A stretch of 24,839 bases of DNA from a virus: positions 1 to 24,839 of IMG/VR virus record IMGVR_UViG_3300032240_001459. One strand, written 5' to 3'. Below, piece after piece: positions 22,171 to 24,707 of this stretch. The translations under genes and the position numbers were made by a program. The notes below the pieces were generated by a model that worked only from the letters and a program-made list of their open reading frames with translations, ran no database searches and was not told the DNA's origin. Position 1 is the stretch's first letter, and the number at the start of each line of letters is the position of its first letter.

Positions 22171-22839
22171 ATGGACAAGTATTACGTACTAGTAGTTGGT
22201 AACGGTTCTACAAGTCGCCAGAATGTAGAAGCGCTTATGGAAGACCATTACTATGCTAATGGTGACAGCGGGGTTCTTGTTATCCCTGTAGATAAAGCTC
22301 CCACTCAATCTCAAATATTTGTAGCACAGTTTGCTAAAGAAAAAAATAAAGAGATTGTTTTTGTAGCAAATGAAAACACTAACTTAACAAACGTCCCAGC
22401 ATCTTCGGTTGTAATTGATGACGACCCTCTAAATAAAGCCGTAGAGATTGTTATTGGCGAAAAGGTATCTGCGTTTCTTCTATGGTCAGATGATGACCAA
22501 ACTTCATTAGAGGCGCTATCGGCTTGTAAGAAGGCCAACATCCCATGCTTTGACTTAACCAACGGCCTGACCGTTATTAATGCTGCAGATAGCATTCCAG
22601 ATACACAGAAGATTAAATTCCCAGATGCAGAAATCATTAAGGAAAGGACATCGGTGGATGCGGAGAAAGAAGAAGTCGACGAGGAAGAAGACTACGAAGA
22701 AGAGTTTGACGAAGAAGACGACGACAGCGAAGACGAGGACTATGAAAATCTCTACGCGGGGGTCGAAGCGATAGCCCGTATCTTTGCCAGGGTTTTTTTA
22801 GAGGAAATGGAAGCGGCCAAGAATGGCCCTAAGTCCTAA
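22171..22839 (+). CDS. Rossmann-like protein with highly acidic C-terminal stretch
   Basis: 222 residues. The N-terminal about 140 residues look like an alpha/beta Rossmann-type domain: KYYVLVVGNGSTSRQNVEAL, then SGVLVIPVDKAP, then KEIVFVANE, then SAFLLWSDDDQTSLEALSAC, then NIPCFDLTNGL. Similar 'GNGSxSRxNVEAL' and 'DLTNGL' proteins occur in actinophages as far as I recall, without a firm function. Residues about 160-195 are an almost uninterrupted Asp/Glu tract, followed by a helix (AIARIFARVFLEEMEAA). Such acidic tracts occur in DNA mimics and partner-binding tails, but that is speculation. A very strong AAAGGAGG precedes the ATG. It is the first gene after the tail-block terminator and overlaps the next by 17 bases. 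Confidence 0.88.
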   Translation: MDKYYVLVVGNGSTSRQNVEALMEDHYYANGDSGVLVIPVDKAPTQSQIFVAQFAKEKNKEIVFVANENTNLTNVPASSVVIDDDPLNKAVEIVIGEKVSAFLLWSDDDQTSLEALSACKKANIPCFDLTNGLTVINAADSIPDTQKIKFPDAEIIKERTSVDAEKEEVDEEEDYEEEFDEEDDDSEDEDYENLYAGVEAIARIFARVFLEEMEAAKNGPKS

Positions 22840-23716
22840 GGCTTTAGGGCTGCTCCTACACGTGTACGCAGAGGGGGCCGTAGGAGGCTCTAGAAGGCTC
22901 TCTAAGGACTTTGGGGTGGGTAGGGTGTATGTCGAGTCAGGCTTGATAGAACTGCGCTCTAACGACCTTGTAAGCCTTGTAAAGGGCAAAACCGACAAGG
23001 GTAACTACTGGGCTCAAGTTGAGATAACTGAGGCAGGGGCAGACCTTGTAAAAGCGCTGTCCAAAAAAGGTAAGCTCCGTTGTCGAAAATCAACAACGGA
23101 CCCGTTGTCGAAAACCAAGCCATCTATTGAACAGAATAGCAATCTAGCTAATTATCCTAATAGTAAAGATGCTAATTCTTTTAATAGTAAAAATACCCCC
23201 GAAGGGGAAAAAGAAAAAGAAACTTATACAGGAGTAGAAAATATGTTAGGCACAACGCCAATGGACCCAGATGATTTAGCTGCCGAGATTGCCAAGGACA
23301 AGGAGCGCAAGAAGAAGCAGACTGCCGAAGAGAAGAGTCAGAACTATCAGAAGCGTAAGTCAGACCGCGAAAATCGCTCTGTAAAAGATTGGAGCCCTGC
23401 CGATACCGTCAACTACTTCGCGCAACAGTGCAACCTCTTGTGGCATATAAAGGAGTTCCGTGTTGATAGGGCTGCATTTGTTAGTGCTGTAAAGAATTTC
23501 CGCGACACGTTTGACACCGACGGGGTGCTTGAAAAAGAACTTATTGACCGATATTTTGACAGCATCAAACATGATACTAAGAAAAACGACGGAGAAGTTT
23601 TGTGGAAAACTTTTATTAAGTACGCCCCACTTCGCGTTGAAGAGATACGTCGTGATAGTGTTGCTGAAGACTTAGAAGCAGCAGAGACAGTAAGAGCTAG
23701 TAGAAAGGGTTTGTAA
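22823..23716 (+). CDS. Winged-helix replication initiator-like protein
   Basis: 297 residues. About 1-80 is a winged-helix DNA-binding domain: LSPKALGLLLHVYAEG, recognition region SRRLSKDFGVGRVYVESGLI, then LRSNDLVSLVKGKTDKGNYW as wing and strand. About 85-140 is a low-complexity linker with an 8-residue repeat starting Asn-Ser at 105, 113 and 121. About 155-185 is Lys-rich, and about 190-297 is a helical domain (WSPADTVNYFAQQCNLLWHI). The layout (DNA-binding head, linker, C-terminal domain, helicase loader next door) is like lambda O or DnaD-type initiators. The linker DNA carries iteron-like repeats. The start is inside the upstream gene without a clear ribosome site. It runs TAATG into the loader gene. 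Confidence 0.88.
   Translation: MALSPKALGLLLHVYAEGAVGGSRRLSKDFGVGRVYVESGLIELRSNDLVSLVKGKTDKGNYWAQVEITEAGADLVKALSKKGKLRCRKSTTDPLSKTKPSIEQNSNLANYPNSKDANSFNSKNTPEGEKEKETYTGVENMLGTTPMDPDDLAAEIAKDKERKKKQTAEEKSQNYQKRKSDRENRSVKDWSPADTVNYFAQQCNLLWHIKEFRVDRAAFVSAVKNFRDTFDTDGVLEKELIDRYFDSIKHDTKKNDGEVLWKTFIKYAPLRVEEIRRDSVAEDLEAAETVRASRKGL
23077..23114. repeat. Direct repeat with inverted half-copy (candidate origin element)
   Basis: CCGTTGTCGAAAA occurs perfectly at 23077-23089 and 23102-23114, 25 bases apart. Between them lies ACAACGG (23093-23099), the inverted complement of the repeat's CCGTTGT. Hence there are three copies of the 7-base core in a 32-base span (23077-23108), in + / - / + orientation, inside the initiator gene. 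Confidence 0.65.
23123..23194 (+). repeat. Iteron-like 24-bp tandem repeats in an AT-rich stretch
   Basis: AATAGCAAT at 23135, AATAGTAAA at 23159 and AATAGTAAA at 23183 recur at exactly 24-base steps. The last two units also share GCTAATT at 23147 and 23171, and the first unit is degenerate. The stretch is AT-rich. The period is a multiple of three, so it also encodes an 8-residue repeat (NS..AN..). It resembles the iterons of lambda-type origins lying within the initiator gene. Confidence 0.65.
23189..23207 (-). terminator. UUCG-tetraloop terminator on the minus strand
   Basis: Read on the minus strand, CCCC (23207-23204), TTCG loop, GGGG (23199-23196), then TATTTTT. The C(UUCG)G loop is exceptionally stable and is followed by five U. 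It would stop leftward transcription into the repeat region. On the + strand it is followed by A-runs and would not terminate. Confidence 0.5.
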
Positions 23717-24402
23717 TGTACGACTTAGCAAAACAAAAAGTACGTCGCAAAGCTTGGATTCAATCTTCCAACATACCTAAAGCTCGTCTTGGTTGGACGT
23801 TAGATGATTGTAAAGATACTCATCCTGATGACATAGAAGATATTAAAAAATGGATTGGTCACCTAGACCGCGGCTCAGTTGTTCGCGCTTCTGGAGAGGA
23901 CAATTGCGGTAAGGGTTTACTATTTGCTGGCAAGCCAGGGCGCGGTAAGTCAACAGTGGCTGCTTCTATCCTTCAGACAGTTATGCTCAATTCCCCCCTT
24001 CTTGCGTTTGACGTTGAAGAGGGTGGGGTTTTAATTCGTCCTTGCTACTTTATGACCTTTAATGACGTGCTTTCTTTATCAGGCCGTTTAATGGATAGCC
24101 CGACAGACTGGGAAGAAGTCCTCTACTATGGTGTCTTAGGCGAGGCTCATGACTCCTATAACATCAGAGTCCTAGTGATAGACGATGTTGGCAAAGAGCA
24201 TTCCAGCCTAAGCGGTTGGCAAAAAAACGTATTGCATCATGTGTTGCGTAATAGATTTAATCGTGGTTTGCCAACTATTGTTACTACTAACGTTATGTTG
24301 GAAGATTGGGGCACACTGTATGGTGATGCAACAGAAAGCTTTGCTAAAGAAGCCTTCCACTATTTCAATATGGTTACTAACAAAGGAGACCTACGAGAAT
24401 GA
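23716..24402 (+). CDS. DnaC-type AAA+ helicase loader
   Basis: 228 residues. Walker A is GKPGRGKST at 72-80, Walker B is RVLVIDDVGKEH at 151-162, and a sensor-1-like TIVTTN lies at 187-192, preceded by VLRNRFNRGLP, the usual DnaC/IstB order. The N-terminal 60 residues are a basic helix and a helical region that would contact the helicase or the initiator. Such loaders deposit the replicative helicase on the origin. It follows the winged-helix gene by TAATG and overlaps the SWIM gene by ATGA, forming one replication operon. A zinc-binding N-terminal domain of some DnaC/DnaI proteins is absent. The helicase itself is not in the window and could be the host's. Confidence 0.95.
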   Translation: MYDLAKQKVRRKAWIQSSNIPKARLGWTLDDCKDTHPDDIEDIKKWIGHLDRGSVVRASGEDNCGKGLLFAGKPGRGKSTVAASILQTVMLNSPLLAFDVEEGGVLIRPCYFMTFNDVLSLSGRLMDSPTDWEEVLYYGVLGEAHDSYNIRVLVIDDVGKEHSSLSGWQKNVLHHVLRNRFNRGLPTIVTTNVMLEDWGTLYGDATESFAKEAFHYFNMVTNKGDLRE

Positions 24403-24707
24403 GCAAGGTAATGGATACTAAACTTGTACAAGTTTTTCTAAGTCAGACACAGACACCTGGACCAGGTATCTATGAGGTGTCAGTCGATGATGACAACAAG
24501 TTTTATTGCACTTGCCCAGGTTTTCAAGGTCGCAACACATGTAAACATGTTAAGTTTGTAACTGCCCGTGTTAAGTCTAACGGCGGAGATAATTACCCAT
24601 TAGAGTTTTCTAGCCGTGCAACTAAAGATGATGTTGTAAAGGCTAAACAATCTAAAGAAGAGTTTAGAGATTTCGTCATAAGATTTGGCAAGATTGAAGT
24701 CTTCTAA
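24399..24707 (+). CDS. SWIM zinc-finger protein
   Basis: 102 residues, a compact SWIM domain: FYCTCPGFQGRNTCKHVKFV, with ligands Cys37, Cys39, Cys48 and His50 (CxC...CxH). SWIM fingers bind DNA or proteins and often accompany recombination or helicase enzymes. Here it is a stand-alone protein in the replication operon, with a basic/acidic helical C-terminus (DDVVKAKQSKEEFRDFVIRF). AAAGGAG is 10 bases before the ATG. A second Met at codon 5 is an alternative start. Its stop overlaps the next start by one base. Confidence 0.92.
   Translation: MSKVMDTKLVQVFLSQTQTPGPGIYEVSVDDDNKFYCTCPGFQGRNTCKHVKFVTARVKSNGGDNYPLEFSSRATKDDVVKAKQSKEEFRDFVIRFGKIEVF

Follow-up and report, generated by a model that had tools for sequence, protein, structure and literature searches.

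To judge from its layout and from sequence comparison, the segment at about nucleotides 23076 to 23207 of the window is probably a cis-acting replication origin of the lambda ori/SPP1 oriL type, lying within the codons for the linker of an initiator gene. The window is the whole stretch of virus DNA analysed here, 24,839 nucleotides in length, corresponding to positions 1-24,839 of IMG/VR record IMGVR_UViG_3300032240_001459. The features of the locus are the following:

22823..23716, + strand: initiator gene (ORF call), 297 aa, with winged helix, disordered linker and helical C-terminal domain
22823..23065, + strand: codons of the winged-helix DNA-binding domain (residues 1-81), the presumed iteron reader
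23076..23116, + strand: upstream array of 25-nt pitch, made of the dyad TCCGTTGT-cgaaaatca-ACAACGGA at 23076-23100 and a second copy of CCGTTGTCGAAAA at 23102-23114
23135..23191, + strand: AT-rich zone, with AATAGY-N6-GCTAATT at 23135-23153 and 23159-23177 and AATAGTAAA at 23183-23191
23197..23207, + strand: hairpin CCCC-GAA-GGGG, a weak local version of the hairpin of the relatives
23230..23234, + strand: Shine-Dalgarno sequence AGGAG of an internal start, with a counterpart in 21 of 22 relatives
23243..23716, + strand: in-frame internal gene from Met141, 157 aa, a predicted free C-terminal protein
23716..24402, + strand: DnaC-like helicase loader gene (phrog_50, E 8e-26; IstB, PF01695)

In the AlphaFold2 model of the initiator (overall pLDDT 72.6), residues 87-144, encoded by nucleotides 23081-23254, are disordered (pLDDT < 50) and residues 149-296 form a helical C-terminal domain, so that a winged helix is joined to a separate helical domain as in phage O-like/DnaD-like initiators. 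The repeats and the AT-rich tract thus lie inside the initiator coding sequence and between the codons for its two domains, as the earlier note had placed them. Fold matches of the model to winged-helix structures reach Z 10.2 and include the DnaD N-terminal domain (2v79), while the C-terminal domain had no convincing solved relative among the structures compared. The window copy of the initiator matched no Pfam or PHROG family; those of two relatives did, L148 matching phrog_678 ("replication initiation O-like"; 5.5e-7) and another initiator PHROG, phrog_270 (3.3e-5), and L126 matching phrog_270 (0.0012). The gene probably serves to start DNA replication and, because one relative matches replication-initiation PHROGs, a distant homology to the O-like family is possible; the convergence with lambda that had been proposed earlier is accordingly not established. 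The DnaC-like gene, correctly recognised beforehand as the immediate neighbour, gives the locus the downstream helicase-loader gene of lambda- and SPP1-type origins, and in a relative (G003) genes for a DnaB helicase, a primase, a helicase, a DNA polymerase and a recombinase are found beyond the loader.

When used as a protein query in a direct search, the initiator retrieved zero relatives from viral contigs or phages, and relatives were found with the loader as bait, by direct plus profile search; no relative was found in the bacterial/archaeal genome collection. All loci long enough to show one carried a homologous initiator ORF directly before the loader. We compared 22 representative relatives, which fall into 20 clusters less than 85% identical and of which the most distant share about 25% identity with the window; since these 22 lineages share ancestry, the p-values given across lineages overstate their independence. 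The locus belongs to a large family of phages with contractile tails, uncultured and not lambdoid. As a null model we resampled the codons of each gene from its own usage while keeping the protein.

Within the window, CCGTTGTCGAAAA occurs at 23077 and 23102, 25 nucleotides apart (2 copies in 24.8 kb, against 0.01 expected), with the inverted 7-base core ACAACGG-AC-CCGTTGT at 23093-23108, so that the 13-base direct repeat and core reported previously are both present; the 25-nt repeat exceeds the synonymous null (p 0.003). Downstream of it, AATAGYAAW recurs at 23135, 23159 and 23183 in the exact 24-base steps that had been described, these being its only + strand copies in the window, and the whole window holds 8 copies against 1.87 expected. 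The first two units are 19-bp hyphenated dyads, AATAGY-N6-GCTAATT, for which 2 matches were found and 0.00 expected in the window. The AT content is 70% in this zone and 55% in the ORF, and 5-mer repeats of the window alone are above synonymous nulls (p 0.009-0.044). By itself the window is modest evidence; the strength comes from the relatives.

Comparison of the 22 lineages revealed that (i) all of them carry AATAGC in the linker, with 33 in-frame copies against 2.7 expected from the proteins, (ii) the same word occurs in the second frame 4 times against 0.26 expected, the third frame being one that would give a stop codon, (iii) ATAGCA and GCTAAT show a similar excess over synonymous expectation, and (iv) the words are spaced by 8, 15, 16, 17, 18, 24 and more nucleotides. 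For AATAGC the z value is 14, with 22 of 22 lineages, whereas the top-scoring words of three control segments elsewhere in the genes had z 9.2, 7.9 and 6.1 and were never shared by more than 12 lineages. The repeats are therefore under selection at the DNA level, synonymous sites included and beyond the protein, as in lambda- and SPP1-type origins, while the linker protein diverges, which is the pattern that the earlier note had named as support for an origin. In nine long contigs the relaxed 19-bp unit was found only at the initiator locus, and a search for the two-unit pattern over all IMG/VR contigs returned 17 contigs, all of them known members of the phage family. Only the full 19-bp unit has this power: by the density of generic TAGC-like 5-mers, the locus did not stand out in most contigs. 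In the winged-helix codons of the relatives, CTTGTA, GGCCTT and CCTTTC are moderately above synonymous expectation (z 8-9; 7-12 lineages), possibly a further DNA-level signal near the gene start.

The locus thus holds two classes of repeats, the AATAGC words common to all lineages and an upstream array that is specific to each. In about half of the relatives an array of lag 24/25 precedes the AT-rich zone, the sequences being mutually unrelated (CCGTTGTCGAAAA in the window, ACCGTTGCGGAAAAC in L018, GACGGAGTGCCAAAA in L148), and in about half of the lineages none is detectable. The lag is 25, and thus out of frame, in the window, L018, L002 and L031. The pitch of the arrays is that of lambda iterons, and in the window the first array unit is, like those iterons, a dyad with an A-tract centre; when arms of at least 5 are required, the window and L148 alone have this dyad in perfect form, and we make no family-wide claim for it. 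We presume that these arrays are lineage-specific iterons, and their differences between lineages would fit an initiator co-evolving with its own site.

In almost every lineage a hairpin separates the AT-rich zone from the internal start, mostly with a stem of 6-10 bp and often with a 3-nt loop. Over its 11 stem types the combined p against synonymous resampling is 9e-15, and a repeat of the analysis gave 3e-12, compared with 0.50, 0.88 and 0.43 for three segments elsewhere in these genes. Stem positions switch among GC, CG, AT and TA by compensatory changes, so that the sequence changes and the pairing stays. In the window the hairpin noted earlier does exist at 23197-23207, but its stem has only 4 bp and is the weakest of the set (p 0.05-0.23 against synonymous resampling). 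DNA hairpins are stabilised by triloops closed by C-G, and a triloop of this kind would suit a single-stranded DNA signal; it is also possible that the hairpin acts as RNA.

Following the hairpin, AGGAG-N8-ATG at 23230-23245 forms an in-frame internal start that had escaped the earlier note. An in-frame Shine-Dalgarno sequence and start codon follow the hairpin in 21 of 22 lineages, while the remainder of these genes has such a combination at 16 of 6008 codons, and they are kept at the same place, as expected of two-in-one initiator genes, with the start codon varying among ATG, GTG and TTG. The strength of the Shine-Dalgarno sequence per lineage is not significant against synonymous resampling, though its position is conserved. 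The C-terminal part is predicted to fold alone (pLDDT 82). Most likely, on this comparative evidence, the initiator gene also makes a free C-terminal protein of about 157 aa, which could help or limit loading.

Taken as an origin, the segment would work as follows. The winged helix of the full-length protein would bind the upstream array of 24/25-nt pitch, and the adjacent AT-rich AATAGC/GCTAAT zone would be the site of unwinding and loading, with the hairpin forming on the exposed strand or marking the border. The C-terminal domain would then pass the site to the DnaC-like loader encoded by the next gene, which would bring the phage DnaB-like helicase. The Shine-Dalgarno sequence and start behind the hairpin may, in addition, release the C-terminal domain as the free protein.

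Three other explanations of the locus were weighed. The earlier caution that a protein repeat might account for the 24-base period is answered by the relatives, which use the words in other frames and at other spacings, and by the lag of 25 of the window 13-mer; for these reasons the period is not that of a protein repeat. A pattern that is merely the shadow of a protein repeat or of a conserved linker peptide (SIxQNSxxANxPxS) would account for the conserved Asn-Ser of that peptide and for a period that is a multiple of three, but not for the presence of AATAGC in 22 of 22 lineages when just 7.2% of the Asn-Ser codon pairs in the contigs are written AATAGC, nor for the same word in other frames, the 25-nt repeats and the non-triplet spacings. 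Already contradicted by the synonymous-site tests, this explanation is scarcely credible. Alternatively, the hairpin, spacer and Shine-Dalgarno sequence could be a translational control element that only starts the short protein, the AT-rich words keeping the mRNA open, with no origin involved. The start kept in 21 of 22 lineages, the hairpin ending 11-45 nt before it and the position of that hairpin on the mRNA strand all agree with such an element, which nevertheless leaves unexplained the AATAGC words upstream of the hairpin, in several frames and in all 22 lineages, and the lineage-specific 24/25-nt arrays further upstream; moreover, the distance from hairpin to start varies over the whole of that range, and a search of Rfam gave no family match. 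We regard it as unlikely.

The winged helix could also recognise the segment for autoregulation or partition, with the origin elsewhere. In fold it is similar to MarR/PadR-type regulators and to a plasmid centromere-binding protein (4rs8, Z 9.3), and operators are typically dyadic repeats; yet no excess of promoter or terminator sites beyond chance was found around the locus, an operator inside the linker codons of its own gene, far from the gene start, would be odd, and a helicase-loader gene follows. The best candidate for an origin elsewhere, the TTATCCACA sites at +30 to +41 kb, looks promoter-linked, and this explanation appears very unlikely. An intragenic origin is the reading that we prefer; a lambda-like origin nested in the initiator linker, as proposed in the earlier note, is supported by the layout and by DNA-level selection, which makes origin activity of the segment probable.

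Perfect DnaA-box-like TTATCCACA sites were seen in six relatives (G001, G003, G004, G005, G009 and G010; 3-11 per contig), mostly about 30-41 kb after the loader, dispersed and nearly all in one orientation. The sites are embedded in a longer motif that they have in common, TGTGGATAACTnnnTnAAC, and most of them lie no more than about 150 nt ahead of a leftward gene; they are probably a promoter-linked element of leftward operons; dispersed and linked to promoters in this way, the clusters were rejected as a rival origin. The window, with a single TTTTCCACA at 23601, lacks a DnaA-box cluster of the oriC type, and a second origin was not found. The GC-skew inflection suggested previously as a check does occur, as a break lying -1258 to 0 nt from the locus in 9 of 9 long contigs, but fourfold-degenerate sites show no step there, and GC skew was for this reason rejected as support for an origin; the break, which falls at a module border, comes from protein content.

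The closest precedents are lambda ori and SPP1 oriL for the arrangement and pIGRK for the internal start. The lambda origin lies in the middle of initiator gene O, in a flexible linker between the DNA-binding and loader-binding parts (PMC6022878, PMC7466680), and its iterons are imperfect inverted repeats of roughly 19 bp (PMC7466680). The present locus shares with it the position between two initiator parts, presumed dyad iterons with an A-tract followed by an AT-rich region, and the loader gene next (PMC6022878, PMC7466680), and differs in the sequences of these iterons, in having a second set of words, common to the family, in its AT-rich part, in the covarying hairpin and conserved in-frame internal start, and in belonging to contractile-tailed phages outside the lambdoid group. 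In the Bacillus phage SPP1, oriL lies in gene 38 for the origin-binding protein, followed by the loader gp39 and the DnaB-type helicase gp40 (PMC6316719). Repeats and an AT-rich element within the initiator gene, with a loader after it, are common to both (PMC6316719), whereas the loader here is DnaC-like (AAA+), a second origin is not found and the sequences are unrelated. The repR gene of plasmid pIGRK encodes full-length RepR and, from an internal start, the N-terminally truncated in-frame RepR' (PMC6854812). One initiator gene would likewise give two in-frame proteins here, as predicted; in contrast, both RepR forms interact with DNA, while the predicted short form here is without the winged helix, and for the plasmid there is no description of an origin lying between the two starts (PMC6854812). 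The sequences and the hidden internal start are what is new here; that start, placed after the probable origin, and the words shared across the family are the unusual features of the locus.

The BRock-group Streptomyces phages are distant relatives (sheath 38-39%, loader 31%). They have a protein of about 155 aa that aligns with the initiator C-terminal domain (hhalign P 2.1e-5, probability 77), encoded directly before the loader or one small gene before it (BRock gp115, LuckySocke gp109), and its gene is the probable counterpart of that domain, in these phages a separate gene without a winged helix and in which nested repeats were not found. BRock gp108 was considered as a separate winged-helix gene and rejected, as it does not match. 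This probable counterpart, annotated as hypothetical, lies next to the loader at L174:4292-4753, at L191:1501-1974 and in relatives.

A two-layer origin in a two-in-one fusion gene is a fuller account of the locus, which, taken as a whole, we advance only tentatively. The winged helix would read the lineage-specific iterons, while the loader, helicase, primase or a host factor would read the family-wide AATAGC/GCTAAT element and the triloop-type hairpin, and the internal start behind the origin would yield a free protein that recruits the loader and tunes initiation. On this view the gene would have arisen by fusion, an origin and a ribosome-binding site that once lay between genes having turned into linker codons without losing their functions, a history that is plausible. 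With a probable counterpart present as a separate gene in Streptomyces phages that are in culture, both the idea of a fusion and the part played by a free C-terminal protein can be tested. If the origin is real, a broad family of uncultured contractile-tailed phages lacking any annotated one would gain a testable origin whose repeats are distinctive enough for the family to be found from its DNA only. The locus would also suggest that nesting the origin in the disordered linker of the initiator is a solution that recurs, combined in this case with a second protein made from that gene.

Some further observations concern the neighbourhood and the relatives. One relative contig (G002, the contig of L017) measures 96.9 kb with a 252-nt direct terminal repeat and is probably a complete genome map. 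The gene at 22171-22839, immediately upstream of the initiator, overlaps the initiator start and encodes a very acidic C-terminal tail; it matched no Pfam or PHROG family, and carries a tandem repeat, GAAGAAGAC, that recurs at the same place in several relatives. Directly after the loader, a gene at 24399-24707 encodes a small SWIM zinc-finger protein and is present in relative G003 too.
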